Source: Halobacillus shinanisalinarum
GTDB taxonomy: Bacteria; Bacillota; Bacilli; Bacillales; Halobacillaceae
Assembly (NCBI RefSeq): GCF_022919835.1
Contig: NZ_CP095074.1
Location: 3,512,001 to 3,576,000 of the forward strand
Reading direction: 5' to 3'
Length of the DNA stretch: 64,000 bases
In this document: positions 9,887-63,568 of the stretch, piece by piece
Layout of the letters: every line of letters starts with the position of its first letter
How positions within the stretch are numbered: position 1 is the first letter of the stretch
Translations under genes and position numbers: made by a program
The notes under the pieces: generated by a model
The model's input: the letters and a program-made list of their open reading frames with translations, nothing else
Databases searched by the model: none
Told to the model about the DNA's origin: nothing

Positions 9887-9902
9887 AGAAAGGATGGAGA
9901 GT

Positions 9903-10699: not shown

Positions 10700-10712
10700 A
10701 GGAGGGTATCCA

Positions 10713-11756
10713 TTGAAATCAATGAGGGTCGCGATCATTGGTGGCGGGGATGTAGCCGAGAAGAAACACCTTCCGAATTACCGGAGTTATGAAGGTGTTG
10801 AAGTCGTTGCTGTACTGAACAGAAGGGAAGAGAAGGCTCGTTCATTCGCTGAGCGCAATCAAATTGACCATGCCTACACTGACCTGGAAGAAATGCTGAG
10901 TACGGAAAAGCCGGATATCGTCAGTGTCTGCACACCGAATAAATATCATTACCATCATGTTATGGAAGCCCTGAAAGCGAATTGTCATGTGCTTTGTGAA
11001 AAACCTCCGAGTATAGCTGCTTCTGAGGCTAAAGAAATGAATGACCTAGCCAAAGAGAAAGGCTTGGTGCTAGCTTATAACTTTCAACATCGTTTTTCAG
11101 AGGAAACGGCTATTCTGCGTAACAAAGTTCAAGAAGGGATGCTTGGTGACATCTATTACACCAAGCTCTCTGCCTTAAGAAGGTCCGGTGTGCCAGGCTG
11201 GGGGAATTTTATTAGTAAAGACCTTCAAGGGGGCGGTCCCTTAATCGATATAGGCATACATATGCTGGATAGCGCTTTTTTCATCATGGGATTTCCAGAA
11301 GTGAAAAAGGTAACGGCGAACATGTTTCAGAAGATTGGACCGTATAAATCAGAAGGTTCTTTTGGCACATGGAATCCTGATCAATATGGGGTAGAAGACT
11401 CGCTGTTCGGCTCGATTGAACTTAAGAACGGCGGGTTAATCCAAATCGACACGTCCTTTGCGCTTCATATGAAACAAACGAAAAAGCTGAATATCGAGTT
11501 TGCTGGAGATCAAGCGGGTGCCACCTTGTATCCTTTAGAAATTTATACAGACGAGAAGGGTGAACTCGTAACTCTGTTTGAAAAAGGCCCTGCCGATACA
11601 GATGACCGTGAACGACTTTCGATTCATTCTTTTATCCATAAATGCTTAGGATCACAGGAAGAATGGATTACAAACGGTGCAGAAGGATATGAAATTCAGA
11701 AACTAGTTGAAGCGTTATACAGATCTGCTGAAATAGGAGAGAGTATTTATTTATGA
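10713..11756 (+). CDS. ycjS: Gfo/Idh/MocA oxidoreductase, probable D-glucoside 3-dehydrogenase
   Basis: 347 residues. N-terminal Rossmann fold with VAIIGGGDVAEKKHLPNY (residues 6-23), the family signature EKPPSIAASEAKEM including the catalytic-region Lys (EKP), and the C-terminal substrate domain with the GGGPLIDIGIHMLD helix that carries the active-site Asp/His. TTG start at 10713, AAGGAGGG seven bases upstream. In E. coli YcjS oxidises glucosides at C3 with NAD. The 3' end overlaps the GH65 gene (ATGA), part of one transcript. Confidence 0.85.
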   Translation: MKSMRVAIIGGGDVAEKKHLPNYRSYEGVEVVAVLNRREEKARSFAERNQIDHAYTDLEEMLSTEKPDIVSVCTPNKYHYHHVMEALKANCHVLCEKPPSIAASEAKEMNDLAKEKGLVLAYNFQHRFSEETAILRNKVQEGMLGDIYYTKLSALRRSGVPGWGNFISKDLQGGGPLIDIGIHMLDSAFFIMGFPEVKKVTANMFQKIGPYKSEGSFGTWNPDQYGVEDSLFGSIELKNGGLIQIDTSFALHMKQTKKLNIEFAGDQAGATLYPLEIYTDEKGELVTLFEKGPADTDDRERLSIHSFIHKCLGSQEEWITNGAEGYEIQKLVEALYRSAEIGESIYL

Positions 11757-47527: not shown

Positions 47528-47629
47528 ATGTTTACAATCTATTGGATCGCATTAGCTGTTTTCTGGGGAATTGGTTTACTCATTTGGAATCATAGCTATG
47601 GAAAATCTACCCAAGGGGGGCGCAACTAA
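47528..47629 (+). CDS. Symporter small accessory protein
   Basis: 33-residue protein starting MFTIYWIALAVFWGIGLLIW, one membrane helix and a short polar tail. AAAAGGAGAGAGG ribosome binding site. Its TAA overlaps the ATG of the sodium:solute symporter (TAATG), so the two are coupled. Tiny one-helix partners are found next to other symporters of this family. Confidence 0.7.
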   Translation: MFTIYWIALAVFWGIGLLIWNHSYGKSTQGGRN

Positions 47630-49131
47630 TGCAACTCGTTACGGGACCACTATTATGGACACTAGTCAGCCTGTTAGCTCTGTACTTTGTTTTTGTGACG
47701 TGGATTGGAAAAAAGGGGAACCAGCATAGTAAATCGATGAACGGTTTTGCAACGGCAAGAGGGAAAGTAAGTCCATGGCTGGTAGGGGCTAGCTATGCAG
47801 CAAGCTTCGCCAGTGCCAACTTGTTTATCGGTGTGCCTGGATTAGCTTATGAGCATGGAGTCTCCGTACTATGGTACACGCTGGGTGGCTTTGGGGCTGG
47901 CTGGATCGCCCTGCTGTTGTTTGCTAAGAAGTTTTGGAAATATGGCAAGAAGTTCGGCGGGGTTTCCACACTTCCTGAATGGCTGGGGAGAAGATATAAC
48001 AGCAAAACTTTGCAAGTACTAGTCACTTGTTTGGTGCTGTTTAATGTGTACTATATTGTCGGTCAAAATGTCGGGTTAGCCACGATTTTTGAATCCGTTA
48101 TCGGCATTCCTTATTTCTGGGGCATTCTGATTGGTGTGACCATTACGATTCTTTATATCGGACTTGGAGGTGCCTTCGCGCAAATTGTTACGGATGGCAT
48201 TCAAGGAACTCTGATGGTTATTACTTCCATTCTGATCTTTGTGTCGTTATTCTGGACCATAGGTGGGGGGCTGAATGTATTCGGGGAACTTTCTAGTAAA
48301 CTGGAGGCGATTGATCCGGAGTTGGTCGCACCACTAAATGGACCTTACAATAGTGTCCTGGCCATTTTGTCCGTGCAATTTTTACATATCAGTTTTGTTG
48401 TTATGCCACACCTGCTTAATAAAGTGTTATCACTGGAAACCGAGGAGCAGCTCCGGCCATTTACGATGTCAGCGGGTCTCGGCATGTTCTTCATTACTGT
48501 GTTAATGGTATTGGGTGGTCTGGCAGCTAGAGTGCTGGCTCCATCGCTTAGTAGTGCGGACTCGGCCATTCCCGTCTATATATTAGAAGCCTTTCCGCCG
48601 ATCATTGCTGCGATTATTATCGTTGGAATTATTTCAGCCATTTTATCAAGTACAGACAGCTTGTATTTGAGCATTACATCAAGCATTGGAAACGATCTGT
48701 ACAAGGTGCTGGCTCCGATTCTATCAAAAGGGAAGTTATCACAGCATCAACTGGATGTACGCTCGGTAAAAGTAGCAAAAGGCTCACTCGTCTTTGTTGG
48801 TTTGGTCACCTTTTACCTGTCGCTCGATCGACCGGAGTCGCTGGCGATACTGATTCAGTTTAGTTTCTCAGCGATTATCAGTGGTCTCCTTGCGCCGATC
48901 GTATTGGGCTATTTATGGGGGAAATCCAATGGGAACGGTGCCATCGCATCATTGATTTCAGGTACTGGGCTCTATGTTATTTTTACTAGCCTGAACGTTT
49001 TTGAAAACATTTATATATCCCTGTTCCTTGCCGCTGCTGCTGGGTTTGTTGTGATGATTGTGACGAGCTTAGTCACAACGTCTAATGTAACAAAAGAGGA
49101 AGAGGATGTCTTTTTGAAAGATGTTCTTTAA
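47629..49131 (+). CDS. Sodium:solute symporter (SSS family), SAM-riboswitch controlled
   Basis: 500 residues, thirteen predicted membrane segments. SSS hallmarks: SPWLVGASYAASFASANLFI, GVSTLPEWLGRRY, LGGAFAQIVTDGIQGTLM and AILSSTDSLYLSITS. Under an S-box riboswitch, so it most likely imports methionine, a sulfur amino acid or another organosulfur compound, perhaps the one attacked by the monooxygenase on the other side of the repeat. Substrate is inferred from control only. Confidence 0.85.
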   Translation: MQLVTGPLLWTLVSLLALYFVFVTWIGKKGNQHSKSMNGFATARGKVSPWLVGASYAASFASANLFIGVPGLAYEHGVSVLWYTLGGFGAGWIALLLFAKKFWKYGKKFGGVSTLPEWLGRRYNSKTLQVLVTCLVLFNVYYIVGQNVGLATIFESVIGIPYFWGILIGVTITILYIGLGGAFAQIVTDGIQGTLMVITSILIFVSLFWTIGGGLNVFGELSSKLEAIDPELVAPLNGPYNSVLAILSVQFLHISFVVMPHLLNKVLSLETEEQLRPFTMSAGLGMFFITVLMVLGGLAARVLAPSLSSADSAIPVYILEAFPPIIAAIIIVGIISAILSSTDSLYLSITSSIGNDLYKVLAPILSKGKLSQHQLDVRSVKVAKGSLVFVGLVTFYLSLDRPESLAILIQFSFSAIISGLLAPIVLGYLWGKSNGNGAIASLISGTGLYVIFTSLNVFENIYISLFLAAAAGFVVMIVTSLVTTSNVTKEEEDVFLKDVL

Positions 49132-49362: not shown

Positions 49363-50505
49363 TTATTTATTATTCCTTTTATCTATTATATTTCTAAACG
49401 ACCAGAGGGCAATTTCCAGGGATAAGCGATCATATGAGGAGGTGAAATCTGTCTTCAAAAGTTTTTTGATCTTATCTAAGCGATGGTATAGGGTTTGGCG
49501 CACAATAAAGAGAGCGTTAGCCGTTTCTTGCTTGTTACATTGATGACTTAAATATGTATCTAGTGTAATAAGCAGGTTGCTATCGTTTTCTTGGTCATAC
49601 TTAATTAACGGGAAAAGATGGTCGTCAATTAGAGTTGAGAGTTTATTCTCTCTTATCAAGGGAACCACCAACTTCTCAATGAACAATTCATCATAGTGTA
49701 AGGTTCTTTTTCTTATTAATGAATGATAAATTTTATTTGTTTCCTTAAGGGTGTTAATTGAATGAGCGGCCTCATTCATACTGTGCATTTTTTGACCAAT
49801 AAGTACTAGGGAAGGTAGTGAGATGAAAAGTTTATCTAGCCTTTTACGAAGTGTATGGATCTCATCATTTAAATCGGACACTATAAGAAATACTCCAGTA
49901 GTTTTAGAGGCTAGATTAGTGAAGGTAATATCCAGTCCAAGTTCTTTTCCTAAGATACAAAAGTTAGGAACAGTCTCATCTGGATGAATCAAATAAAGGG
50001 AGGCAACCCCAGGATACATGGGATTTGTGGAAATGTCCGACATAACTGCGGTTGACGGATTATTCCACCATTGAATCAATCGCTGTTGGGACGTTAAGTT
50101 TTCGTCAGGGAAATAGAGTTGATCATAGATTTTCTTGGTAATATCGATAAATCGTACTTGATTCTCGAACACAATAATAGGGAAGTTGTTTTCTTCAGCG
50201 ATTTCTACCATCTCTTCGGGTATTTTCTCTACATAAGTGTTTAATTCTACACAGAGACCCGATGCTTGATTTTCAATTAATTCATCCAAAAGTTTTGCAC
50301 CTAGATGAGGCTTCTCTGCCCAGCCAATACCTGTCGTAAGTATTAATTCTCCTCCATTTATTAAGGCTTCGACCTGATTAACTTCGAGCACATGTGCCCA
50401 TTTCACGATTCGTTGGGTACCTTTCATCCCGCATACTACTTTAGATTTTTTAAAGCAGTCCATTCCTAATAACATTTCGATTGTGAGAAAGTTATTATCA
50501 TTCAT
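49363..50505 (-). CDS. PucR-family transcriptional regulator
   Basis: 380 residues. N-terminal PucR ligand domain (LTIEMLLGMDCFKKSKVVCG, GGELILTTGIGW, GLCVELNTYVEKIPEEMVEIA) and C-terminal PucR helix-turn-helix (TLDTYLSHQCNKQETANALF, VRQTLYHRLDKI). These proteins activate catabolic genes for purines and other nitrogen compounds. Divergent from the operon starting at 50832, with an 18-bp palindrome between them. Confidence 0.88.
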   Translation of the reverse strand: MNDNNFLTIEMLLGMDCFKKSKVVCGMKGTQRIVKWAHVLEVNQVEALINGGELILTTGIGWAEKPHLGAKLLDELIENQASGLCVELNTYVEKIPEEMVEIAEENNFPIIVFENQVRFIDITKKIYDQLYFPDENLTSQQRLIQWWNNPSTAVMSDISTNPMYPGVASLYLIHPDETVPNFCILGKELGLDITFTNLASKTTGVFLIVSDLNDEIHTLRKRLDKLFISLPSLVLIGQKMHSMNEAAHSINTLKETNKIYHSLIRKRTLHYDELFIEKLVVPLIRENKLSTLIDDHLFPLIKYDQENDSNLLITLDTYLSHQCNKQETANALFIVRQTLYHRLDKIKKLLKTDFTSSYDRLSLEIALWSFRNIIDKRNNK

Positions 50506-50571
50506 CTATTTTCCTCCCTCTTTACACACTGTCCAAAAATTTATATTAAGATCTCATGAACTGTCTAATGA

Positions 50572-50589
50572 AATGTAAGTGCTTACATT
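50572..50589. promoter_or_regulatory. Candidate operator of the PucR-type regulator
   Basis: AATGTAAGTGCTTACATT, 8-bp perfect arms with a 2-bp centre, in the divergent gap. The rest of 50506-50831 holds only a 17-codon mini-frame at about 50658 behind GAGAGGGG, which may be a leader peptide or chance. Confidence 0.5.
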
Positions 50590-50831
50590 ATACAATTAAG
50601 TTAATATTCAAAATAATCATACCAAAAATTCTTAAAAACCGATAGAGAGGGGCCAAAATGAACAGGATAAATACTGATGGGGTGTGGAAGAGGTTAGCGA
50701 ATCATAAATAACAAATACAGTAGCCCTGATCGCGTGACACATACGAATCAGTTTACAATCTGTCTAGTGGCGGTGTGACCTTTTATAAGGAAAGAAAAGT
50801 TACAATTCGTATTTAAACAGGGAGTGATGAG

Positions 50832-52172
50832 ATGAATGAGACGTTAGAATGGCAATGCAGAGATGAAAATAATGTTATGCACGCCCTAAAGCGAGCTAGT
50901 AAGCAACCACTTATAATTGAAAATGCAAAAGGATGCTTTATTAAAGATAGTGATGGTAATAAATATTTAGATGGCATGGGGGGGCTTTGGTGTGTCAATG
51001 TAGGATACGGAAGAGAAGAACTTGCTGAGGCAGCAGCAGAACAAATGAAAAATATGTCCTACTTCCCTATGACAAATAGTCATCTCCCAGCAATTGAGCT
51101 GGCTGAAAAACTTAACACCTGGCTTAATAATGATTACGTTATTTTTTTCTCCAATAGCGGATCTGAAGCGAATGAAATGGCGTTTAAGATCGCTAGACAA
51201 TATCACTCTCAAAATGATAGTTCGAGTAGACACAAGATTATTTCAAGATACCGGTCGTATCATGGGACAACAATGGGGGCTTTGGCTGCAACAGGTCAGG
51301 CTGAAAGAAAATATAAATACGAGCCATTAGCTGCAGGTTTTTTACACACAGTGCCTCCAGATTGTTATCATTGTCCATTAAATAAGCAACCATCTACTTG
51401 TAATCTTGAGTGCACAGACTTAATAGATCATACGATTACTTGGGAAGGGAAGGAAACTGTAGCGGCTATTATTATGGAACCCTATATTTCTGGAGGAGGC
51501 GTTCTAATTCCGCCAAGGGGATATATGGAAAGGGTAAAAGATATATGTGAAAAACATGGAGTACTCTTGATTGTAGATGAAGTGATTAATGGTTTTGGAC
51601 GAACAGGGGAAATGTTCGGTCACTTTCATGAGGATGTAACGCCAGATATCATAACAATGGCGAAAGGGCTTACTAGTGGGTATCTCCCATTATCGGTCAC
51701 AGCAATTCACAAAGACTGTTATGAAGCATTTGAAACCTCTGAAAAATATGACCACTTTCGAAGTGTAACAACCTTTGGGGGAAATCCAGCAGCCTGCGCA
51801 GTCGCGCTGAAAAATATCGAGATTATCGAGAGGGAGAAGTACATTGAGAATGCTTACAATCAAGGGGAGCAGCTTTACGAGGATATGAAAGAACTCCTTT
51901 CTCACCCTAATGTTGGGGATATTCGATATAAAGGATTAATGATGGGAATTGAACTTGTTGAAGATTCTATTAATAAAACACCCATTCACGAAGATAAGTT
52001 GAATTTGGTGCTAAGCAAGTGTAAAGAAAAGGGAGTTATTATTGGAAAAAATGGGGATACCGTAGCCGGTTTTAATAATGTGTTAACGATTGCCCCGCCA
52101 TTATCGATCGATGCAGGAACTATAAGATTCCTTAGTGGTGTCGTGAAAGCTTCCATTTACGAAACTTTATAA
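50832..52172 (+). CDS. Class III omega-aminotransferase, probable beta-alanine:pyruvate transaminase
   Basis: 446-residue PLP enzyme, fold type I class III. FFSNSGSEANEMAFKIAR binds the cofactor phosphate; LLIVDEVINGFGRTG holds the PLP Asp; the Schiff-base Lys is in ITMAKGLTSGYLPLS; TTFGGNPAAC is the partner-subunit loop. The close subgroup includes beta-alanine- and taurine-pyruvate aminotransferases. First gene of an operon that also imports a pantothenate-like substrate and hydrolyses an N-acyl amide, so beta-alanine released from pantothenate is the best candidate substrate (inference). GGGAGTGATG ribosome binding site. Confidence 0.8.
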   Translation: MNETLEWQCRDENNVMHALKRASKQPLIIENAKGCFIKDSDGNKYLDGMGGLWCVNVGYGREELAEAAAEQMKNMSYFPMTNSHLPAIELAEKLNTWLNNDYVIFFSNSGSEANEMAFKIARQYHSQNDSSSRHKIISRYRSYHGTTMGALAATGQAERKYKYEPLAAGFLHTVPPDCYHCPLNKQPSTCNLECTDLIDHTITWEGKETVAAIIMEPYISGGGVLIPPRGYMERVKDICEKHGVLLIVDEVINGFGRTGEMFGHFHEDVTPDIITMAKGLTSGYLPLSVTAIHKDCYEAFETSEKYDHFRSVTTFGGNPAACAVALKNIEIIEREKYIENAYNQGEQLYEDMKELLSHPNVGDIRYKGLMMGIELVEDSINKTPIHEDKLNLVLSKCKEKGVIIGKNGDTVAGFNNVLTIAPPLSIDAGTIRFLSGVVKASIYETL

Positions 52173-52192
52173 CTTAATGGGGAGGTGGGAAA

Positions 52193-52474
52193 ATGGCTCC
52201 AAAGAATCAAGACTATCGTTTTAAAATAGCAAACCGAGAGGCCTTAATCGGTGTTGCTTTAGCTATCATTAACTTCGTTTGGTGGTTTGCTTTTGCCTAT
52301 GGGTTAGGAAGTAAACCACCAGAAGAGTATAATTATGTGTTTGGTCTGCCATCATGGTTTTTTTATAGCTGCGTGGGTGGCTTTATTTTTATAACTGTTC
52401 TGGTTATTTTTATTGTTAAATTCTTTTTCGTAGAGGTGCCATTTGAAGATGAAGATAGGGGTGATCAATCATGA
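52193..52474 (+). CDS. yhdT: YhdT-like small membrane protein (DUF997)
   Basis: 93 residues, two membrane helices. The segment FGLPSWFFYSCVGG and the tail VKFFFVEVPFEDED match the YhdT/DUF997 pattern (GFPRWF and IYRDIPLEDDD in E. coli YhdT). yhdT lies directly before panF in E. coli and does so here, overlapping panF by 4 bp. Probable accessory subunit of the symporter. GGGGAGGTGGG ribosome binding site. Confidence 0.85.
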   Translation: MAPKNQDYRFKIANREALIGVALAIINFVWWFAFAYGLGSKPPEEYNYVFGLPSWFFYSCVGGFIFITVLVIFIVKFFFVEVPFEDEDRGDQS

Positions 52475-53940
52475 ATGTAGCCGTTATAGTACCACTATTA
52501 CTTTTTTTAGTTATTATTTTTGCGGTTGGATTTATGGCGAGTCGATCCCTTAATAAGTCTAATAATGACTTTATGCAAGAATACTTTCTAGGCGGTCGCC
52601 AGCTAGGTGGCTTTGTTCTAGCTATGACCATGATTGCCACTTACGGAAGTGCCAGTAGTTTTATTGGTGGGCCTGGAGTAGCTTATACACAAGGGTTTGG
52701 TTGGGTTTTGCTCTCCATGTCACAAGTGGCTACGGGATACTTTGTTCTTATGATTTTAGGAAAGAAATTCGCCATTATGGCAAGAAGGTATAATGCGGTC
52801 ACGTTAACAGATTTTTTAAAAGGTCGTTATCAGAGTAAATGGGTTGTGCTAACGGCGGCTTTTAGTATTATTATTTTTCTATTTTCTGCAATGGCAGCCC
52901 AATGGGTGGGTGGTGCAAGATTAATAGAATCTTTAACAGGAATATCTTACACTACATCCCTTTTTATTTTTGCTGTATCTGTGCTCATTTACGTAGTTAT
53001 CGGTGGGTTTAAGGCCGTTGCCTTAACGGATACTGTCCAAGGCGTGGTTATGTTTGTTGGAACCTTAGTCTTATTAATCGCTACGATTGTTGCTGGTGGT
53101 GGTATATCTAATATTATGGCAGACCTAACAGCAGAGAACCCAGATTTGATTACTCCATTTGGTGCAGATGGCAGTTTAACACCAACTTATGTTTCTTCCT
53201 TTTGGATCCTCGTTGGTGTAGCAGTAGTCGGGCTTCCTCAAGTTACAGTACGGGCTATGTCCTATAAAAGCTCGAAAGCGATGCACCGTGCCTTACTTAT
53301 AGGGACGATCGTGGTTGGATTTATTATGTTAAACATGCATCTAATTGGTGTCTTTGCGCGTCCGATCCTCCCAGGAATTGAAGTGGGGGATAAAGTTATG
53401 CCGCTGATCTCGTTAGAAGTGTTACCTGCTTGGCTAGCCGGGATTGTCTTAGCCGCCCCTATGGCTGCGATTATGTCAACAGTAGACTCTTTACTTCTTT
53501 TAGTTAGCTCATCGGTAGTTAAAGATATCTATATAAACTATATCAAACCAGATGCGTCACACCAAAGAGTAAAAAACTTAAGCTTCGGAGTGACTACTGT
53601 CTTAGGGGTACTCGTTTTCTTAATGGCACTTAATCCACCAGACCTGTTAATTTGGCTTAACCTATTTGCGTTTGGCGGTTTGGAAGCAACGTTTATTTGG
53701 CCGGTTGTCATGGGACTTTATTGGAAAACTGGCAATAAATACGGGGCACTCTCCTCTATGGCAGTTGGGATCGGCTCTTATATTATCATCGATCTCTTCT
53801 TTACATCACCATTTGGTATGCACAGTGTCGTTTTACCAGTTATTTTCTCCTTTATTGCATACGTAGTCGTTAGTTTAGCAACAAAAAATGTAGCTGTGAA
53901 TGATTATATCGCCCAACAAAAAATGGAAAGGAGCATGTAA
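52471..53940 (+). CDS. panF: Sodium/pantothenate-type symporter (SSS family)
   Basis: 489 residues, thirteen predicted membrane segments. SSS signatures: FLGGRQLGGFVLAMTMIATY, the Na+-site region SASSFIGGPG, AVTLTDFLKGRYQSK, GGFKAVALTDTVQG and AIMSTVDSLLLLVSSS. The PanF assignment rests on this sequence type plus the YhdT partner. In this operon it would bring in the compound that the following enzymes degrade. Other short organic acids remain possible. Confidence 0.8.
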   Translation: MNVAVIVPLLLFLVIIFAVGFMASRSLNKSNNDFMQEYFLGGRQLGGFVLAMTMIATYGSASSFIGGPGVAYTQGFGWVLLSMSQVATGYFVLMILGKKFAIMARRYNAVTLTDFLKGRYQSKWVVLTAAFSIIIFLFSAMAAQWVGGARLIESLTGISYTTSLFIFAVSVLIYVVIGGFKAVALTDTVQGVVMFVGTLVLLIATIVAGGGISNIMADLTAENPDLITPFGADGSLTPTYVSSFWILVGVAVVGLPQVTVRAMSYKSSKAMHRALLIGTIVVGFIMLNMHLIGVFARPILPGIEVGDKVMPLISLEVLPAWLAGIVLAAPMAAIMSTVDSLLLLVSSSVVKDIYINYIKPDASHQRVKNLSFGVTTVLGVLVFLMALNPPDLLIWLNLFAFGGLEATFIWPVVMGLYWKTGNKYGALSSMAVGIGSYIIIDLFFTSPFGMHSVVLPVIFSFIAYVVVSLATKNVAVNDYIAQQKMERSM

Positions 53941-55170
53941 ATGAAAACAAATCAACTCCATTCTCAACAAACGAGAGATCGTGAAGCTGTCATATCACTA
54001 ACTCAAGAATTAGTCAGAATCCCTAGTGTTTACCGCCCGGGAGTAGAGGGTGGGAATGAAGAAAAGGTAGCCAATTATGTAGCTGACTATTTGAAGCAAA
54101 AGGGAATTGAAGTTCATATAGAAGAAGTTGAACCGGGGCGGCCAAATGTCATAGGTGTTGTGGATTCTGGCAAACCTGGGAAAACGCTCCTTCTTGAGGG
54201 GCATACGGATGTGGTGACAGAGGGGGATCATAGTGCATGGAGATATGATCCGTTCGGAGCTGAAATTGTCGAGGGAAGGATGTATGGACGAGGAACGAAT
54301 GATACGAAAGGAAATCTGGCCTGTATGATTACAGCTGTAGACTCTATCTTGCAAGATGAGGAAGAATTTACAGGTAAAATTATTTTATGTATCCCTTGTG
54401 ATGAAGAAAGCATGATGATTGGAATCAAACATTTTATTAAAAATGGCTGGGCCGATAGAGTAGATGGTGCCATTATTTGTGAACCTGAGGAAAATCAAGT
54501 ATGTATAAGTCAACGCGGCGCTATGAGGATAGAACTGAAAACGTACGGGAAAATGGCTCATGGTGCGATCTCATGGAGTGGCATAAATCCTAATTGGAGG
54601 ATGGCACGAATAATTGTTGAACTTGAAAGGCTAGAAAAGAAAGAGCAAGAGCGTCTAGGTAAGCATCCAACACTAGGGTGGCCGAGTATTACCCCAACGA
54701 TCTTAACTGCACCAGTCAAAGGCGAGGCACAAATTAATGTTATTCCGGAACAGTGTATGACAACACTAGATATAAGGACGGTGCCGGGCCAAGACCACGA
54801 GGAACTTAAACAGGAGATTCTTGAGATTTTTACAAGACTTAAAAAAGATGATGAATATTTCAAAGCAGATTTTGAAGTGATAGAGGATCGTCCTTGGACA
54901 GAAACCGATAAAGAAGAGGCTGTGGTGGAAGCGGTCGCCAAAGCTGTAAAAGATGTGATGAAACAAGAACCTAAATATAATGGAGTTCCGGGAGCTACCG
55001 ATGGGACCTTTCTTCATATTGCTGGAGTTCCTATAGTGACTATTGGAGCTGGTGATCGAGAAATTCCCCATCAAATTAATGAATATGTGGATATAGAAGA
55101 ATTAGCTGAAACCACCCAAATCTATCGCCAAGCATGCTTGAACTTTCTTAATGAAGATGGTGACTATTAA
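53941..55170 (+). CDS. M20 family amide hydrolase (ArgE/DapE type), candidate pantothenate hydrolase
   Basis: 409 residues. Zinc ligands: His in LEGHTDVVTEGD, Asp in GRGTNDTKGN, the catalytic-region CDEES, the ICEPE segment and a late His in EIPHQINEYVD. ArgE/DapE enzymes cut N-acyl amino acids. Pantothenate is an N-acyl-beta-alanine, so this enzyme could supply the pantothenase step, giving pantoate and beta-alanine (inference from the operon). ATG follows the panF stop directly; ends overlapping the next gene by 1 bp. Confidence 0.82.
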   Translation: MKTNQLHSQQTRDREAVISLTQELVRIPSVYRPGVEGGNEEKVANYVADYLKQKGIEVHIEEVEPGRPNVIGVVDSGKPGKTLLLEGHTDVVTEGDHSAWRYDPFGAEIVEGRMYGRGTNDTKGNLACMITAVDSILQDEEEFTGKIILCIPCDEESMMIGIKHFIKNGWADRVDGAIICEPEENQVCISQRGAMRIELKTYGKMAHGAISWSGINPNWRMARIIVELERLEKKEQERLGKHPTLGWPSITPTILTAPVKGEAQINVIPEQCMTTLDIRTVPGQDHEELKQEILEIFTRLKKDDEYFKADFEVIEDRPWTETDKEEAVVEAVAKAVKDVMKQEPKYNGVPGATDGTFLHIAGVPIVTIGAGDREIPHQINEYVDIEELAETTQIYRQACLNFLNEDGDY

Positions 55171-56258
55171 TGCATAACATTGCTGTGATTCCAGGTGATG
55201 GAATTGGGCGGGAAGTTATGGAGGAAGCCTTATGCCTATTAGAAGAAATTTGCAAGACTAATTCTCTCCTTACCATCGAATGGGAAATATTTAGTTGGAG
55301 TTCAGAATATTACTTGCAGCATGGAGAAATGATGCCAAAGAATGGTCTGGACACCTTAAAAAAGTATGATGCTATATTGTTTGGAGCCATCGGTGACCCT
55401 CGTGTTGCAGACGAAGTGTCCATATGGGATTTAATCATGCCCATTCGTAAGGGGTTTGAGCAATATATTAACTTTCGGCCGATAAAACAATTAGCAGGTA
55501 TAAACGCTCCTCTACAAATTGATAAGGACATTGACTTTGTTATCATTCGTGAGAACGCAGAAGGGGAATACTCCAATATGGGAGGAAACCTCTATCAAGG
55601 TACATCTCAGGAAATGGCTGTCCAGAACACAGTCATGACGCGTGAAGGCGTGAAGAAGGCGAGTGCCTTTGCTTTTAAATATGCCCGGTCAAAGAATTAT
55701 AAAAAAGTAACGAGTGCTACGAAATCTAATGCGATTTTGCATACAATGAAGCTCTGGGATAGGGAAGTGGCATCCGTTTCTAGCAATTATGAAGATATCC
55801 ATTTTGAGTCTGTTTATATTGATGCCTTAACGGCTTACTTTGTCCAACGACCTGAGGAGTTTGGGGTAGTCTTAGCATCGAATTTGTTTGGCGATATTTT
55901 ATCTGATCTAGGTTCATCTATTGTGGGTGGTCTAGGAGTCTCGCCTTCAGCCAACATTAATCCTGAGGGGAACTACCCATCCATGTTTGAGCCTGTCCAT
56001 GGATCTGCTCCGGACATTGCAGGCCAAGGAATCGCAAACCCAATTGCACAAGTTTGGTCGTTAGCTCTTTTGCTCGAACATTTAGGATACGAACAACCCG
56101 CTGATGCCATTTTGCAATCGATTCAACATGTTATTCAAGAAGGGATCGTAACCCCGGATTTGGGAGGAACTTGCACGACTAAACAGGTAGGAAAAGCCAT
56201 TCGAGATCAAGTTAAGTCAAACTTGTTGGGGGCCGAAAAGTATGAAAGTTCAAGGTAA
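55170..56258 (+). CDS. Decarboxylating beta-hydroxyacid dehydrogenase (IMDH/tartrate/D-malate family)
   Basis: 362 residues. IAVIPGDGIGREVMEEAL at the N-terminus, LFGAIGDP, the substrate and metal residues in ENAEGEYSNMGG, the Lys of VTSATKSNAI, and NLFGDILSDLGSSIVGGLGV with the metal Asp. Closest in feel to tartrate/D-malate dehydrogenases, not to LeuB. Such enzymes oxidise a D-malate-type acid and decarboxylate it with NAD. In this operon the natural substrate would be 3,3-dimethyl-D-malate, giving 2-ketoisovalerate (inference). Confidence 0.82.
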   Translation: MHNIAVIPGDGIGREVMEEALCLLEEICKTNSLLTIEWEIFSWSSEYYLQHGEMMPKNGLDTLKKYDAILFGAIGDPRVADEVSIWDLIMPIRKGFEQYINFRPIKQLAGINAPLQIDKDIDFVIIRENAEGEYSNMGGNLYQGTSQEMAVQNTVMTREGVKKASAFAFKYARSKNYKKVTSATKSNAILHTMKLWDREVASVSSNYEDIHFESVYIDALTAYFVQRPEEFGVVLASNLFGDILSDLGSSIVGGLGVSPSANINPEGNYPSMFEPVHGSAPDIAGQGIANPIAQVWSLALLLEHLGYEQPADAILQSIQHVIQEGIVTPDLGGTCTTKQVGKAIRDQVKSNLLGAEKYESSR

Positions 56259-56988
56259 GACGATTGTGGTGACTGGAGCCAATGGAGGAATGGGAATAGC
56301 TGTCGTTAAACAATTACTTGAAGAGGGAGCCCAAGTAGTAGGCTGTGATTTGAAAGGTGATCAATTAACAGGGTTGGGACAAGAAAAGCTAGTGATTTTT
56401 GAAGGGGATTTACTAGAGGAGTCATTTGTCCGGCACGTATTTTCCAAAGCCAATGAACGTTTTGGGAAGATTGATGGATTGGTTAATGCGGCGGGTATGG
56501 CTCAACAAGCCACTCCCATAGAGGAAACTACACTAGATATGTGGCATAATCTATTAGATATTAATATGACTCTACTATTTTTAAGCTGTAGAGAAGCGGT
56601 CAATTATATGAAGAAACAACAGAATGGAACGATAGTCAATGTTGCATCCATATCGGCTGTACGGCCTCGTCCTGGATTACAATCATACATTGCATCTAAG
56701 GGCGGTGCAGAAAGTTTTTCAAGGGCGCTAGCTATCGAATTAGCGCATGAAAATATCCGAGTTAATACGGTTCATCCAGGTCCATGTGATACGAATATGC
56801 TTGAACAGTTTGCTGCTGAAGGTACGGATATGGAAAAGGCTAAAGAGGACATATTTAAGAAAAGTGTCCCTATGGGAAAACTGCTTACGCCCGAGAACAT
56901 TGCTTCATCAATCGTTTTTCTGCTATCTGAGGAAGCGGACATGGTGACAGGTGCTACCCTAAATGTAGATGGTGGAAGAGGAATATAA
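56242..56988 (+). CDS. Short-chain dehydrogenase/reductase, candidate pantoate 4-dehydrogenase
   Basis: 248 residues, classical SDR. NAD-binding VVTGANGGMGIAVV, DVxx-like acidic residue after strand 2 (CDLKGD), NAAGMA, catalytic Ser in NVASISAV and Tyr/Lys in SYIASKGGAES, closing with NVDGGRG. Overlaps the preceding gene by 17 bp. Oxidation of the 4-hydroxyl of pantoate to the aldehyde is the step the pathway would need; not provable from sequence. Confidence 0.82.
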   Translation: MKVQGKTIVVTGANGGMGIAVVKQLLEEGAQVVGCDLKGDQLTGLGQEKLVIFEGDLLEESFVRHVFSKANERFGKIDGLVNAAGMAQQATPIEETTLDMWHNLLDINMTLLFLSCREAVNYMKKQQNGTIVNVASISAVRPRPGLQSYIASKGGAESFSRALAIELAHENIRVNTVHPGPCDTNMLEQFAAEGTDMEKAKEDIFKKSVPMGKLLTPENIASSIVFLLSEEADMVTGATLNVDGGRGI

Positions 56989-57006
56989 AGAGAGAAAGGT
57001 GAAAAA

Positions 57007-58449
57007 ATGGATAATCTCTTGATGTATGTAGATGGGGAATGGAAAGCTAGTCTTTCTGGTAAGACCATTGAGTTTTTGGATCCTTCAAACCAACAACCGC
57101 TTGGGACTATACCAAGAGGTGAGAAGGTTGATGTCGATACTGCCGTGTCAGCTGCAAGGAAAGCTTTTGAAAGTGAGCTTTGGCGAACCATAAAACCTCA
57201 CGAAAGAGGCTATATATTAACGGAAATGGCTAACAAAATTAGGTTCAATAAAGATGAACTAGCAAATCTCGAAACGTTAGATGTGGGAAAGCCTTTATCG
57301 CAAGCTTATTCAGACGTAGAAGCTGCGGCAAGATATTTTGAATTTTATGCAGGAGCAGCAGATAAGATAATGGGGGAAACGATTCCTATAGAGGATGGAA
57401 TCATTGATTTTACCGTTCGTGATCCGATTGGTGTTACCGCTCATATTATCCCTTGGAACTATCCGATTCAAATTAGCTCCAGAAGTACGGCAGCGGCTAT
57501 AGCCACTGGAAATACAGTGGTTCTTAAAACAGCTGAAGATACGTCACTAACAGCATTAAAACTAGCAGAGTATTTTCACGAAACCAACTTACCAAGAGGA
57601 GTCTTCAATGTCATCACTGGACTGGGTCACGAGGCAGGGGCAGCCTTGTCTACACATCCTGATGTAAACCACATTACTTTCACAGGGTCTGTGGCCACAG
57701 GTAAGCAAATTATGAAATCAGCTGCTGAAAATATTGTTCCAGTCACATTAGAGTTAGGGGGCAAGTCTCCCAATATTGTATTTGCAGACTGTAATGAAGA
57801 GGAAGCACTTAATGGTGTGGTGAGATCTATAATTCAGAACGCAGGACAAACATGTTCAGCTGGATCGAGGCTACTTATTGAAGATAACTATAAAGATAGA
57901 TTCCTTTCTTTATTAAAAGAGAAATTTAAGAAAGTTACAATTGGACCTGGCAAAGATGATTATGATTTAGGACCTATTCTATCAAAAAATCAATTTGATA
58001 AAGTCTCTTCTTTCATTGAAAAGGCTCGGGAGGAAGGAGAGGTTATAACAGGAGGGGAAAGGGTAAATATAAAAGGTTTCGAAGATGGTTATTATTTGCA
58101 GCCTACCATTATCGACCACATATCCCATGAGAGTGATATAGCTCAACAAGAGATTTTTGGTCCGGTTTTATCGGTCTTTCCATTTGAAGATGAACAAAAG
58201 GCCGTTGAGTTAGCTAATGGTACCGACTATGGGTTAGTGACCGGAATTTGGACTGAGAATATCGGGAAGGCTCACCGAATAGCAGACAAAGTTCTTGCGG
58301 GCCAATTATTTATTAATAACTATGGAGCAGGTGGAGGAATTCAAATGCCTTTTGGTGGATATAAAAGAAGTGGCTTTGGCAGAGAAAAAGGGTTGATTGC
58401 ATTGAAAAATTATACTCAATTGAAAAACGTAGCTATTAAATATAAATAG
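57007..58449 (+). CDS. Aldehyde dehydrogenase, candidate dehydropantoate dehydrogenase
   Basis: 480-residue NAD(P)-dependent aldehyde dehydrogenase. IIPWNYPIQ at the cofactor site, catalytic Glu in VTLELGGKSPNIVF, catalytic Cys in NAGQTCSAGSRLLI, EIFGPVLSVFPF and the C-terminal PFGGYKRSGFGREKG. AAAGAGAGAAAGGTG upstream. Last gene of the operon. It could oxidise aldopantoate to dimethylmalate, or malonate semialdehyde formed by the transaminase. Confidence 0.85.
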   Translation: MDNLLMYVDGEWKASLSGKTIEFLDPSNQQPLGTIPRGEKVDVDTAVSAARKAFESELWRTIKPHERGYILTEMANKIRFNKDELANLETLDVGKPLSQAYSDVEAAARYFEFYAGAADKIMGETIPIEDGIIDFTVRDPIGVTAHIIPWNYPIQISSRSTAAAIATGNTVVLKTAEDTSLTALKLAEYFHETNLPRGVFNVITGLGHEAGAALSTHPDVNHITFTGSVATGKQIMKSAAENIVPVTLELGGKSPNIVFADCNEEEALNGVVRSIIQNAGQTCSAGSRLLIEDNYKDRFLSLLKEKFKKVTIGPGKDDYDLGPILSKNQFDKVSSFIEKAREEGEVITGGERVNIKGFEDGYYLQPTIIDHISHESDIAQQEIFGPVLSVFPFEDEQKAVELANGTDYGLVTGIWTENIGKAHRIADKVLAGQLFINNYGAGGGIQMPFGGYKRSGFGREKGLIALKNYTQLKNVAIKYK

Positions 58450-59140: not shown

Positions 59141-60541
59141 TCAGCTGCTTTGCCTCTTATCAGCATCAGTTGAAAGTTCCCTTTTCGTTGGTCTAGTTCT
59201 TTTAACTCCAAACCAATATAAACCAAAACCAAGTAAGCACCATCCGCCTAAGATAGCCCATTCCATTGGCCAAAGAAGTCCTGATGGCATGCCTGGAAAA
59301 TAAAAACTAATAAAGAGGGTACTTAACATAATGGCAAGTATGCCGGTTGTTTTCCAATACTTTATCTTGTAGGGGCGTATCAACTCAGGTTCTATTTTTC
59401 TGAGTTTCAAAAAGGATATGGAAACAATCAAATATCCCACAACAATTCCGACACCGCCAGCATTTACGAACCAGTTTAGAGCAGATCGGCCTAATAGTGG
59501 CGCTAAGAAAGCAAGAATGCCTAAAAAAACAATAGCGTGTGTCGGTGTTTTGTATTTAGGATGGACGTGAGCAAACCATTTAGGGATCATATCCCTAATA
59601 GCCATTGCATATAGGATACGACTTCCGCCAATTATAAAGGCGTTCCAGCTAGTGATAATACCTGCAACACCGCCTAAAACAAGAATGGTTCCGAACAGCT
59701 GACTCCTGAATAGGTTGACCATTGCGTCGGCAGTAGCAAGTTCAGTGGTCATAAGTTCAAATGGCGTTAATCCAATTGAAACACCAAAAGCAATCAGCAC
59801 GTAAAAAATGATCGATGTAATAATCGATATGATCAATATCCGGCCGATGAACTTTGGGGGGGATTTTATTTCAGAGGCTATTTGCGGAATGACATCGAAA
59901 CCGACAAATAGAAACGGGATCATCACGAGAACTGACATTATACCTCCAAAACCATTATCAAATAATGGCTGCATGTTTTCCGCATCCCCGTTCTTTATAG
60001 CACCGAAGACTAGTAATAGGCCAATCAGAACAACTATAATTGTGAAAACACTCTGAAGGATAGTTGCTGGTTTAATTCCAAAATAGTTTAGCGATGTCAG
60101 TAGAAAGGCTCCAATCGATCCGATTAATACCCAAGTAAGGTAAACATCCCATCCCCCTAATGTCCACAGATATCCTTGGTGTTCGAAGGGAATGATGAAA
60201 TCAATTACTGTTGGCAACGCTACTGCTTCAAAGGTAATAACAGATACATAGCCGAACAAGACAGCCCAGGCAGACATGAAGCTAAGTTTTTTATTAAAAG
60301 CACGTAATACAAAGACTAGACCTCCACCGGTTTCAGGAATGGCAGAAGCTAGTTCTGCATACGTAAGACCGATAAAAATAACGAGTAATCCTCCCAAAAG
60401 AAACGCTATAGCGCTTCCAGCAAATCCGGCTGTGGATATCCACTGACCGGAAAGGACAACCCATCCCCAGCCAAGCATCGCGCCCATGGAAAGGAACAGA
60501 ACATCCACCAATGACATGGACTTTGAAAAACTTTTATCCAT
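59141..60541 (-). CDS. APC-family amino acid permease
   Basis: 466 residues, about twelve to thirteen membrane segments, APC pattern with MGAMLGWGWVVLSGQW in helix 1 and YAELASAIPETGGGLVFVLR in helix 3. ATG 60541 with AAAAAGGAG upstream. Lies beside gabD and gabT on the same strand but about 300 bp downstream, with its own promoter region. May import 4-aminobutyrate or another amine; substrate not provable. Confidence 0.85.
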   Translation of the reverse strand: MDKSFSKSMSLVDVLFLSMGAMLGWGWVVLSGQWISTAGFAGSAIAFLLGGLLVIFIGLTYAELASAIPETGGGLVFVLRAFNKKLSFMSAWAVLFGYVSVITFEAVALPTVIDFIIPFEHQGYLWTLGGWDVYLTWVLIGSIGAFLLTSLNYFGIKPATILQSVFTIIVVLIGLLLVFGAIKNGDAENMQPLFDNGFGGIMSVLVMIPFLFVGFDVIPQIASEIKSPPKFIGRILIISIITSIIFYVLIAFGVSIGLTPFELMTTELATADAMVNLFRSQLFGTILVLGGVAGIITSWNAFIIGGSRILYAMAIRDMIPKWFAHVHPKYKTPTHAIVFLGILAFLAPLLGRSALNWFVNAGGVGIVVGYLIVSISFLKLRKIEPELIRPYKIKYWKTTGILAIMLSTLFISFYFPGMPSGLLWPMEWAILGGWCLLGFGLYWFGVKRTRPTKRELSTDADKRQSS

Positions 60542-60629
60542 AGTATAGACTCCTTTTTTATGATAAGTGAATATACATACTCTTTAGTGTGTCAATGTTT
60601 TAGAAAAAGCTGTGGTTCATCCCATAGAT

Positions 60630-60645
60630 CACTAATTACTTAGTG
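60630..60645. promoter_or_regulatory. Inverted repeat upstream of the APC permease
   Basis: CACTAATTACTTAGTG, 6-bp perfect arms and a 4-bp centre, about 90 bp before the permease start. A related half CACTAAAGAG lies nearer the gene. Candidate operator; nothing else seen between 60542 and 60838 apart from a small CATTCAG/CTGAATG hairpin near 60755. Confidence 0.35.
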
Positions 60646-60838
60646 TAACTATTCCTGACTGTATTACTGCGGTTACTTCTTCTTTCATCATAAACTCTTC
60701 CTTTTCGCCATTATGAATTTGTAAGCGATTTCGGTTTTCACTGTGTAACTAGACATTCAGGGACTGACTGAATGCCGTGTCATTATGCTACTATCATCCA
60801 TCTTTATACAGTGAATCTTAAACTAGAGCGATCATCTC

Positions 60839-62233
60839 TTATGACAAATTCCCGATCGATACATACTTTGTTTCTAAGTACGGCTCGATTCCTTCCGAGC
60901 CGCCTTCACGGCCAAGACCGCTTTCTTTCATGCCCCCGAAAGGTGCATGAGCAGCGGAAGGAGCCCCATCGTTCCATCCGATAATGCCAAAATCTAAATG
61001 TTCATGGAAGAACGTACCTACTCTATAATCATTCGTAAAGAAATAGGCGGCAAGTCCAAAGGGAGTACTATTGGCAATCGTCACAGCTTGCTCATTTTCT
61101 TGATAGGTTGTAATCGGGATCACTGGTCCGAACGTTTCTTCATGCATGATCTTCATGTTCACATCTACATTTTTCAAAATAGTTGGATGAACGAAGAAGC
61201 AGCCTCTTTCCTTATTAGACTGATAGTGATTACCGTACAGCACTTCAGCCCCTTTATCAATCGCATCATTGACCTGGGACACAATTTTATCAAAGCCCTG
61301 TTCATTAATCACGGGTCCTACTTGGGTATCTTTCTCCAGTCCATCGCCCACTTTTAATTTGCGTACTTCGTTCGTTAATTTTTCTGCGTATTCTTCTGCA
61401 ATCCTTTCATGAACAAGGACTCGGTTGACGCAGATACATGTTTGCCCGGCATTTCTAAATTTGGAAGCGATAGTTTGCTCAACGGCCAGATTAAGATCAG
61501 CATCCTCGGCGATGATCAGCGGCGCGTGACCACCTAATTCCATGGAAACATGCTTCACCGTATCTGTACTGTTTTTAATTAGTAACTTTCCAACAGGTGT
61601 AGAACCAGTGAACGTCAATTTTCTTACATATTCACTGTCTGTAAATAGGGGACCAACTTCACTGCCGAAGCCATTGACGCATTGCAACACATCAGACGGG
61701 ATACCAGTCTCATGAGCAAGTTCGATTAATCTTATCGTAGTTAAGGGTGTTTCTTCTGCCGGTTTGATGACAAAAGTACAGCCGGCAGCCAAAGCTGGCG
61801 CGGCCTTCCTTGTCATCATGGCTGCAGGGAAGTTCCATGGGGTAATGGCTGCAACTAATCCTACGGGCTGCTTGCTTACGATAATTCGCTTTGATTCAGA
61901 ATGGGTGGGAACCGTACGTCCATATACTCGTTTGGCTTCTTCCGCATACCAATCAATGTAACTTGCGGCATAGTCGACCTCACCGAGCGATTCCTTGATA
62001 GGTTTTCCACTTTCTAGTGTCATAAGCTCTGCGATTTCTTCTTTATTTTCCTTTACCTTTCGTGACCAATCCTGTAACAATCTTGAACGTTCATGAGCAT
62101 TTACTTTGGACCATTTTTGAAAACTTTCATAACCTTTTTTTAAGGCCTGATTTATCTCTGTTTCCGTATTTGCCTTCACTTCTTGAATGAGTTCTCCTGT
62201 TGCAGGATTTGTTACGTTGATGGATGTTGCCAT
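60839..62233 (-). CDS. gabD: NAD(P)-dependent succinate-semialdehyde dehydrogenase
   Basis: 464-residue aldehyde dehydrogenase. [15 protein letters not shown], catalytic Glu in [12 protein letters not shown], catalytic Cys in [27 protein letters not shown] and the C-terminal [15 protein letters not shown]. The Arg in the NRVLV region and overall pattern fit GabD. Oxidises succinate semialdehyde to succinate in the GABA shunt. ATG 62233 with AAAGGAGG upstream, 27 bp after gabT. Confidence 0.92.
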
Positions 62234-62260
62234 ACATTTGAACCTCCTTTAGCCATCGTT

Positions 62261-63568
62261 TTAGTCAAAAGCTTTTTCTACTATCGATAGTCCTTTTGAT
62301 AACTCTTCATCTGTAATCACAAGTGGTGCTAAAAACCGAATCACATTTCCATTTAATCCGGCAGAAAGCAGCAGTAGTCCGTGTTCGTTTGCATATTTGG
62401 TAATTTCAGCTGTTTTATGTTTATTAGGTAACTTGTTCGAACGGTTATCAACGATTTCAACCGCAGCCATGGAACCTAAGCGGCGAATTTCTCCCACGTA
62501 TTCATGCCTGTCTTGTAATTCTTTCAGTTTACATTCAATGCTCTGTCCAAGCTTTTCCGACTTTGCCAGCAAATCTTCTTCTTGGATAGCATCAATGACA
62601 GCTAATGCAGCCGCACAGGCAACAGGGTTTCCCGCATACGTTCCACCTAATTCACCTGGGTTCGCTGCATTTAAAATCTCTGTTCTGCCGACAACTCCGC
62701 TTAATGGCAAGCCAGCAGCCAATGATTTAGAAACCGTCATGAGATCAGGGGTCACATTAAAATGTTCGATTCCAAATAACTTCCCTGTTCGGCCAAAACC
62801 TGTCTGAATCTCATCGGCAACAAAGGTCATGCCATGTTCTTTACAGAAATCACTTACAAACTGAACGAATCTCTTAGGAGGAATAACAAATCCACCTTCA
62901 CCTTGAACAGGTTCCATTACTACACAGGCAACGGTTTCCGGAGCAACTGTGGCCGTGAAAAACTCTTTGAATTCTTCAATTTTTAAATCAATATATTCGT
63001 TATCAGTCAAATTCTCTGGCTTGTGATACAGATAAGGAGAGGGAGCCTGGTATAATTCCGGTGTAAATGGACCGAATCCAAATTTGTATGGTTTCACTTT
63101 ACTGGTCATACCCATGGTCAAATTTGTTCTTCCATGAAAGCCGCGAGTAAAGGATACAACAGCTTGTCTGCCGGTATATTTACGGGAAACCTTTATCGCA
63201 TTTTCTACCGCTTCAGCACCTGAATTAAACAGCATGGCCTGTTTATCAAAATCACCCGGTGTAATTTGGCATAGTTTTTCGGCTAGATTAATATACCCCT
63301 CATACATCATGACATTAAATCCTGGGTGCAAAAATTTCTCAACCTGTTTATTTACTGCTTCTGTGACCTTTGGATGACTATGGCCCACATTCAATGTTCC
63401 GATGGCCCCTGCAAAATCAATCCATTCATTTTGATTTAAATCTGTTATCGTAGCCCCTTCTGCATGGTGCGCAATATTCAGATTCCCATTACTTACCCCT
63501 TTAGGGATATATTTGTTTCGTTTATTTTGAAGTTCTTCCGTTGTCGTTAGATTAACTACTGCCATCAT
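62261..63568 (-). CDS. gabT: 4-aminobutyrate aminotransferase
   Basis: 435-residue class III aminotransferase. LFNSGAEAVENAIKVSR, MTFVADEIQTGFGRTGKLFG, PLP Lys in LMTVSKSLAAGLPLSG, GTYAGNPVACAAAL. Moves the amino group of 4-aminobutyrate to 2-oxoglutarate, yielding succinate semialdehyde for gabD. GAGGAGG ribosome binding site. Divergent from gabR. Confidence 0.93.
   Translation of the reverse strand: MMAVVNLTTTEELQNKRNKYIPKGVSNGNLNIAHHAEGATITDLNQNEWIDFAGAIGTLNVGHSHPKVTEAVNKQVEKFLHPGFNVMMYEGYINLAEKLCQITPGDFDKQAMLFNSGAEAVENAIKVSRKYTGRQAVVSFTRGFHGRTNLTMGMTSKVKPYKFGFGPFTPELYQAPSPYLYHKPENLTDNEYIDLKIEEFKEFFTATVAPETVACVVMEPVQGEGGFVIPPKRFVQFVSDFCKEHGMTFVADEIQTGFGRTGKLFGIEHFNVTPDLMTVSKSLAAGLPLSGVVGRTEILNAANPGELGGTYAGNPVACAAALAVIDAIQEEDLLAKSEKLGQSIECKLKELQDRHEYVGEIRRLGSMAAVEIVDNRSNKLPNKHKTAEITKYANEHGLLLLSAGLNGNVIRFLAPLVITDEELSKGLSIVEKAFD

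Follow-up and report, generated by a model that had tools for sequence, protein, structure and literature searches.

Pantothenate (vitamin B5) degradation has been described in Pseudomonas fluorescens (EC 3.5.1.22, 1.1.1.106, 1.2.1.33 and 1.1.1.84), and the Pseudomonas pantothenase works via an acyl-enzyme; we know of no Pseudomonas gene for these enzymes. In Escherichia coli, panF and yhdT are paired pantothenate uptake genes. Here, we analysed a stretch of 64,000 nucleotides from Halobacillus shinanisalinarum (contig NZ_CP095074.1, positions 3,512,001 to 3,576,000 of the forward strand), the whole of which is called the window. According to the open reading frame list and the coordinates, it contains seven tightly packed genes on the + strand with a PucR gene diverging from them on the - strand, and these very probably make up a pantothenate catabolic operon. 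The gene types match each of the P. fluorescens reactions, in order; the Pseudomonas pathway is biochemistry without genes, whereas the window offers genes without biochemistry, in Bacillota. The pathway is already known from biochemistry and what is new is the candidate genes, which, if the reading is true, are those of pantothenase, D-pantoate 4-dehydrogenase, 4-dehydropantoate dehydrogenase and dimethylmalate dehydrogenase. An earlier sequence-only reading of this DNA had held that these enzymes largely lack assigned genes, and we found no assignment in the open-access literature, as represented by listings and the starts of abstracts and with subscription papers outside this coverage. In the accessible part of a 2023 paper, which cites the pantothenase references, the pantothenase protein is called unknown (PMC10393543), and the words pantothenase and catabol- are absent from the accessible part of a 2025 review of coenzyme A metabolism (PMC12570885).

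In the proposed scheme, PanF-YhdT would import pantothenate with sodium, and a metalloenzyme of the M20 family would cleave its amide bond, giving D-pantoate and beta-alanine. A short-chain dehydrogenase/reductase (SDR) would oxidize C4 of pantoate to the aldehyde, an aldehyde dehydrogenase (ALDH) would convert this aldehyde into (R)-3,3-dimethylmalate, and a decarboxylating dehydrogenase of the isocitrate/isopropylmalate family (IMDH-type) would yield 2-ketoisovalerate and CO2 by oxidative decarboxylation; the IMDH-type, SDR and ALDH genes are referred to below as the trio. The 2R configuration of D-pantoate is also that of the D-malate-type substrates on which this dehydrogenase family acts. 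On the other branch, a class III aminotransferase (AT) would turn beta-alanine into malonate semialdehyde, which a neighbouring MmsA would convert into acetyl-CoA in some relatives, and PucR is the likely regulator. Profile searches (NCBIfam, Pfam) agree with the gene families named by the sequence-only reading and returned, as it had proposed, one gene type each for the amidase, the pantoate dehydrogenase, the aldehyde dehydrogenase and the decarboxylating dehydrogenase.

The grouping of these genes is conserved. Within the family, M20 is present in 17 of 44 genomes, and YhdT, PanF, M20, IMDH, SDR and ALDH are kept together in all 17, in two gene orders; this six-gene grouping is more than chance. 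A pathway-type IMDH (at least 458 bits) occurs in 17/17 family genomes with M20 versus 1/27 of the others (Fisher p 2.6e-11, kinship ignored). At the level of the order, M20 reaches E<=1e-120 in 12 of 299 genomes, and PanF-YhdT or a set of energy-coupling factor (ECF) transporter genes adjoins M20 in 8/8 new loci, with the IMDH or the trio missing in place at two order-level loci (L054, L055). At the level of the class, 45 of 398 genomes have an M20 match at E<=1e-110; neighbourhoods were examined for 20 of the 44 other matches, and each of these 20 loci showed PanF, an ECF set or two or more genes of the trio. At the level of the phylum, M20 is found at E<=1e-75 in 8 of 398 genomes, and of the seven new loci four carry YhdT-PanF (49-52%) and one EcfS, IMDH (49%) and MmsA.

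We also scanned named genomes, taking the best 80 loci of 533 M20 relatives and counting neighbours within 9 kb of M20. These loci include Halobacillus, Thalassobacillus, Lentibacillus, Virgibacillus, Oceanobacillus, Bhargavaea, Planococcus, Lysinibacillus, Psychrobacillus, Viridibacillus, Cytobacillus, Fictibacillus, Brevibacillus and Aneurinibacillus; they come partly from the same genomes as the G-numbered ones, so that the counts of the two sets are not additive, and L174 and L175, identical in gene content, are contigs from a single species. A pathway-type gene lies near M20 at 79/80 named loci versus 0/13 control loci, the latter being 13 of 14 listed M20 paralogues (25-33% identity) from six cluster genomes. 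The neighbours counted were IMDH (58), SDR (59), ALDH (59), S58 (37), AT (10), MmsA (7) and PucR (11); all three trio genes are present at 55 loci and at least two at 59, in several gene orders. The set tracks together in other genomes over many genera, and it is fullest in Bacillus sp. P14.5 (L161), with PucR, MmsA, AT, YhdT, PanF, M20, IMDH, SDR and ALDH. As side observations on these loci, L168, titled Pseudomonas sp. ISL-84, has a cluster resembling the Cytobacillus oceanisediminis one (L169), with similar identities to the window, and its organism label looks wrong; in Brevibacillus fortis (L226, 11332-13125), an M3-family oligoendopeptidase lies directly 3' of M20, and ORFs of similar size follow M20 in other Brevibacillus loci.

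The transporters link the cluster to pantothenate. PanF of the operon scores 728 bits on the TIGR02119 equivalog model versus 212 on the PutP model, in agreement with the claim of a PanF-like symporter rather than one of another substrate class, and it is 51% identical to an E. coli PanF. As in the E. coli panF-yhdT pair, a PanF equivalog has YhdT directly before it; the window pair differs in sharing one operon with catabolic-type enzymes. Among the 80 named loci, the uptake types near M20 are mutually exclusive: PanF-YhdT at 41 (with YhdT in 41/41), ECF (EcfS) at 15 and an Opp-type ABC system (OppA) at 21, so that exactly one of the three is present at 77. A complete ECF transporter stands in place of PanF-YhdT in Brevibacillus, Fictibacillus and others. 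For the S component of L051, the one EcfS tested, the best solved match is 4RFS (E 1.4e-7; next 0.37), identified in the accessible part of one paper as ECF-PanT of Levilactobacillus brevis (PMC11521937), and the accessible part of another describes an ECF transporter with PanU that imports pantothenate in B. subtilis (PMC11487621). Like these two systems, the variant clusters would carry ECF-type pantothenate uptake, but they differ in encoding the whole ECF set beside the amidase and not a lone S component. Together, the transporter swaps and the MmsA and aminotransferase neighbours point to pantothenate and beta-alanine.

PanF is found in 40 of 44 family genomes versus 17 for M20; it is therefore often a salvage gene, and by itself is no marker of catabolism. 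A second PanF copy occurs in eight family genomes, all with M20. The window genome has a stand-alone yhdT-panF pair elsewhere (L026, 8133-9880), whose PanF is 86% identical to the operon copy, and a PanC gene, and thus has another importer and can probably make pantothenate. Since PanC is present in 20/20 cluster genomes tested, pantothenate uptake is not explained by auxotrophy.

The M20 protein belongs to the ArgE/DapE family by its score on TIGR01910 (Table 1), and its closest relative, from Halobacillus naozhouensis, is 96% identical. In 12 genomes, the cluster M20 proteins score 517 to 937 bits versus at most 207 for the other M20 matches listed (E<=1e-25), and every one of the 45 class-level matches reaches at least 517 bits. 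By sequence, M20 is a clean orthologue group within the class; the gap was measured within the class only, cluster copies beyond it being weaker (410 to 518 bits). H88, D90, D121, E155, E156, E181, H207, R279 and H377 are invariant across 19 diverse M20 sequences, as is the stretch GVPGATDGTF, the 19 including a Thermus plasmid member at 43%. These invariant residues align with the active site of DapE (solved structures 3IC1 and 7UOI), and, by the roles known from DapE, include the metal ligands and the catalytic Glu. The window M20 thus resembles the ArgE/DapE-type deacylases in passing the family cut-off and in its active-site residues; it differs from them in forming a separate orthologue group with its own neighbours, and pantothenate is its proposed substrate. 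We hold a DapE role for it less likely. Because the Pseudomonas enzyme uses an acyl-enzyme and M20 is a metalloenzyme, the two pantothenases may be unrelated.

We analysed the decarboxylating dehydrogenase by a midpoint-rooted tree of 46 rows, in which L112 is a long branch. The pathway enzymes, together with the split one and the one from the PanS operon described below, form a group of 37 (support 96/92), with nine others outside, and the window IMDH does not group with the D-malate/tartrate-type paralogues; the nine outsiders are known here from sequence alone. Besides the operon copy, the window genome encodes three TtuC-like proteins (49-50%) and one that is LeuB-like (33%); the three IMDH paralogues fall outside the pathway clade, and two of them lie beside TRAP or DASS carriers. 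Residues 86-93 read W-[EDQ]-[LF]-[IL]-[ML]-P-I-R in the pathway IMDHs, whereas 6/9 outsiders have W-G and 3FLK reads W-G-S-L-L-K-F-R; from isopropylmalate dehydrogenase, we take this stretch to contact the malate side chain. The window IMDH is close to the tartrate/D-malate dehydrogenases (TtuC, DmlA; 3FLK), being 43-51% identical to the plasmid relatives listed, many of them named tartrate dehydrogenase, but it differs from them by its own tree group and, from 3FLK, by the motif at 86-93.

On the beta-alanine branch, the window AT belongs to the PRK07678 subfamily, a model that names no substrate. AT is the least conserved part of the set: it adjoins the cluster in 3 of 17 family genomes (window, L027, L037), and an AT at least 50% identical lies near M20 at 10/80 named loci, accompanied by MmsA at 6/80. 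The sequence-only assignment of a gene type to every step is supported, with the correction that the aminotransferase is accessory to the operon. The ALDH adjoining AT is the CoA-acylating methylmalonate-semialdehyde dehydrogenase MmsA in 4/4 clusters tested (604-626 bits, cut-off 448.5). Malonate semialdehyde, which arises from beta-alanine by transamination, is another substrate of the MmsA family. The operon alone, as predicted from its genes, stops at malonate semialdehyde.

The S58 neighbour is found at 14/15 EcfS loci and 21/21 OppA loci versus 2/41 PanF loci. The S58 protein of L051 resembles ThnT of the thienamycin pathway (180-182 bits), but among solved structures a nylon hydrolase matches it better and ranks first (249 bits). 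The window differs from the ThnT system in having no S58 counterpart. According to the accessible part of PMC6097109, ThnT trims the pantetheinyl group, after its attachment to the carbapenem, to cysteamine.

Other routes could be drawn from the same genes. M20 could be a pantothenase mainly for beta-alanine recycling or nitrogen supply, with the pantoate branch secondary and carbon catabolism not the main role. Such a role would suit the Cytobacillus-type loci L168-L170 and Bacillus sp. J33 (L166), which have YhdT, PanF, M20 and AT with the trio not nearby, and six Brevibacillus loci with ECF-S58-M20, again with the trio not nearby; pantothenate-making bacteria, moreover, were found to cleave pantothenate given to them and to resynthesize it from the released beta-alanine, according to the accessible part of PMC10393543. 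The window operon, however, holds the whole pantoate branch, and in genome G661, whose M20 locus (L103) is of a trio-less ECF type, the trio lies elsewhere beside a TRAP system, so that we consider this role very unlikely. We give a little less credence still to M20 acting on another N-acyl-beta-alanine or on a different conjugate resembling pantothenate, the real pantothenase then being S58 or some other enzyme: S58 is frequent near M20 at the named loci and its family works via an acyl-enzyme, as does the Pseudomonas pantothenase, and a distant M20 relative (42%) of Deinococcus lies near pyrimidine-degradation genes, but the window operon has no S58, nor do 39/41 PanF-type loci, M20 is the constant element (being also the search anchor), and the S58 relative ThnT acts on a pantetheinyl group.

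The trio might alternatively belong to a D-malate, tartrate or 2,4-dihydroxybutyrate route, with the PanF-M20 pair an unrelated neighbour, which is the least probable of the three. The annotation of the IMDH as tartrate dehydrogenase by TIGR02089 fits this route, as do the trio without M20 in L149 and L270 and the split locus L143; the presence of at least two trio genes near M20 at 59/80 loci in several orders argues against it, as does the clustering of the pathway IMDHs apart from the three window-genome paralogues. L149 (genome G464, 7986-12375) is a second, GntR-linked operon with the order SDR-ALDH-BASS carrier-IMDH and without M20. Its carrier scores 284.5 bits on the PanS model, below the cut-off of 400; among solved structures it matches 3ZUX best, a listed transporter that we take to be the Neisseria ASBT. 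A pantoate complex has been reported for Neisseria ASBT (PMC10645422, accessible part). As a candidate pantoate-only operon, seen at a single locus, L149 also counts in favour of the pantothenate reading.

Gene content, orthology, co-conservation and transporter family are direct observations on these genomes. Several points nevertheless weigh against a pantothenate catabolic operon. The enzymatic activities are all inferred, as are the inducer and the role in physiology, and membership in the M20, SDR and ALDH families gives little information on substrate. The IMDH passes the cut-off of TIGR02089, 'tartrate dehydrogenase', narrowly (481.7 versus 470.4 bits), and its best solved match is the tartrate dehydrogenase 3FLK. 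The lone family genome with a pathway-type IMDH but no M20 (G039, locus L270) has it with SDR, ALDH, a TRAP system and a GlcD-like oxidase; as the oxidase and TRAP stand in place of M20, the trio may accept other substrates. Among the 80 named loci, 18 have no trio gene near M20 and three exactly one; one of the three, L181, has an IMDH of a kind outside the pathway clade (its copy L055 is in the tree), yet is included in the count of 58. None of the three uptake types lies near M20 at 3/80 loci, no name was returned by NCBIfam for the L051 S component, and an OppA-type neighbour at 30% is the sole marker at the remaining two of the seven new phylum-level loci. Neighbour thresholds and the second reference set (L222) were chosen after viewing the neighbourhoods, and the locus counts lack phylogenetic independence. 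The full set is missing from all seven annotated plasmid loci examined for an IMDH relative, six from Proteobacteria and one from an archaeon. At the single named locus without PanF, EcfS, S58, trio, AT or MmsA, that of Peribacillus simplex, M20 follows Opp-like ATPase genes. As an observation apart, L270 (3521-11919) reads GntR, GlcD-like oxidase, TRAP DctPQM, IMDH, SDR and ALDH and perhaps serves another stereoisomer or relative of pantoate.

Outside Bacillota, a plasmid search for M20 at E<=1e-70 returned only Thermus, Deinococcus and Nonomuraea. On the Thermus plasmid (L062, 1011-10407), a divergent PucR is followed by MmsA, AT, SDR and M20 in a row, with an ABC system whose OppA relative is at 30%, which suggests that the module reaches Deinococcota. 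In Deinococcus (L063, 6013-12670), the M20 relative (42%) lies near dihydropyrimidine dehydrogenase and dihydropyrimidinase and is perhaps another beta-alanine-releasing enzyme. Plasmid searches gave 16 records for PanF, of which the one examined, in Cytobacillus spongiae, has YhdT-PanF without M20 beside it, and 444 for IMDH relatives (60 listed), with no full set in the seven annotated and one unannotated neighbourhoods examined. A Burkholderia cepacia plasmid locus has IMDH with M20 aminoacylase and ALDH genes on the other strand, and a Mesorhizobium one an SDR 1.5 kb beyond the IMDH relative. The Caballeronia NK8 plasmid (L060, 7989-12548) shows the order IMDH-ALDH-DUF2520 protein-alpha-hydroxy acid oxidase, an echo of the oxidase in L270. 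PanS-like plasmid proteins numbered 71 records (60 listed), and the five examined sit in unrelated surroundings, so that PanS homologues alone are no marker.

Taken together, these loci are reasonably likely to represent a modular system for consuming the vitamin moiety of coenzyme A, widespread in Bacillota and reaching Thermus: swappable uptake (PanF-YhdT, PanT-like ECF, Opp and others), a ThnT-like S58 enzyme that would release pantothenate by cutting pantetheine, pantothenases forming a new family within M20, a pantoate module able to travel by itself with carriers of the PanS or TRAP type, and AT with MmsA as a module leading from beta-alanine to acetyl-CoA. If the pathway reading is true, four enzymes so far without genes would gain them, M20 enzymes would have a new substrate, and the automatic names 'succinyl-diaminopimelate desuccinylase' and 'tartrate dehydrogenase' would be corrected in these clusters. 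PanF within an operon might then signal a vitamin burned, not saved, of relevance to vitamin exchange in communities and to vitamin B5 production strains.

The layout of the locus is given in Table 1. The coordinates agree with the divergent PucR and packed genes described by the sequence-only reading, with overlaps of 4 bp (YhdT/PanF), 1 bp (M20/IMDH) and 17 bp (IMDH/SDR); PanF and M20 abut, and the AT-YhdT and SDR-ALDH gaps are ~20 bp each.

Table 1. Features of the proposed operon in the window.
Feature	Position	Strand	Basis and proposed role
PucR-family transcriptional regulator	49363..50505	-	PF07905 E 3e-33, HTH_30; divergent; putative control of the operon
Divergent intergenic region, 326 bp	50506..50831		position; presumed operator/promoter
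Class III aminotransferase (AT)	50832..52172	+	PRK07678 709 bits, cut-off 488; proposed beta-alanine to malonate semialdehyde
YhdT (DUF997), small membrane protein	52193..52474	+	PF06196 E 3e-32; putative PanF partner
PanF, sodium/pantothenate symporter	52471..53940	+	TIGR02119 728 bits, cut-off 328
M20 ArgE/DapE-type amidohydrolase	53941..55170	+	TIGR01910 283.5 bits, cut-off 217.6; gene context; proposed pantothenase
Isocitrate/isopropylmalate-family decarboxylating dehydrogenase (IMDH-type)	55170..56258	+	TIGR02089 481.7 bits, cut-off 470.4; tree; residues 86-93; proposed 3,3-dimethyl-D-malate dehydrogenase
SDR	56242..56988	+	PRK07231 225 bits, cut-off 215; proposed D-pantoate 4-dehydrogenase
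Aldehyde dehydrogenase (ALDH)	57007..58449	+	PF00171 E 1e-164; proposed 4-dehydropantoate dehydrogenase

Promoter-like sites are not enriched over the divergent region (31 versus a shuffle mean of 27.2). None of the 25 NCBIfam models shown was matched above its cut-off by the window ALDH; matches of AT and ALDH to solved structures named no fitting substrate, and the SDR had no solved-structure match at the limit set. Just outside the operon, a second sodium:solute symporter (47629-49131; TIGR02119 172 bits, below the cut-off) may carry a related substrate, and relatives of it lie near the cluster in L027 (93%) and in L036 and L164 (70%). On the other side, genes on the - strand (59141-63568) for an amino acid permease, an ALDH and another class III aminotransferase look by eye like a GABA-type operon.

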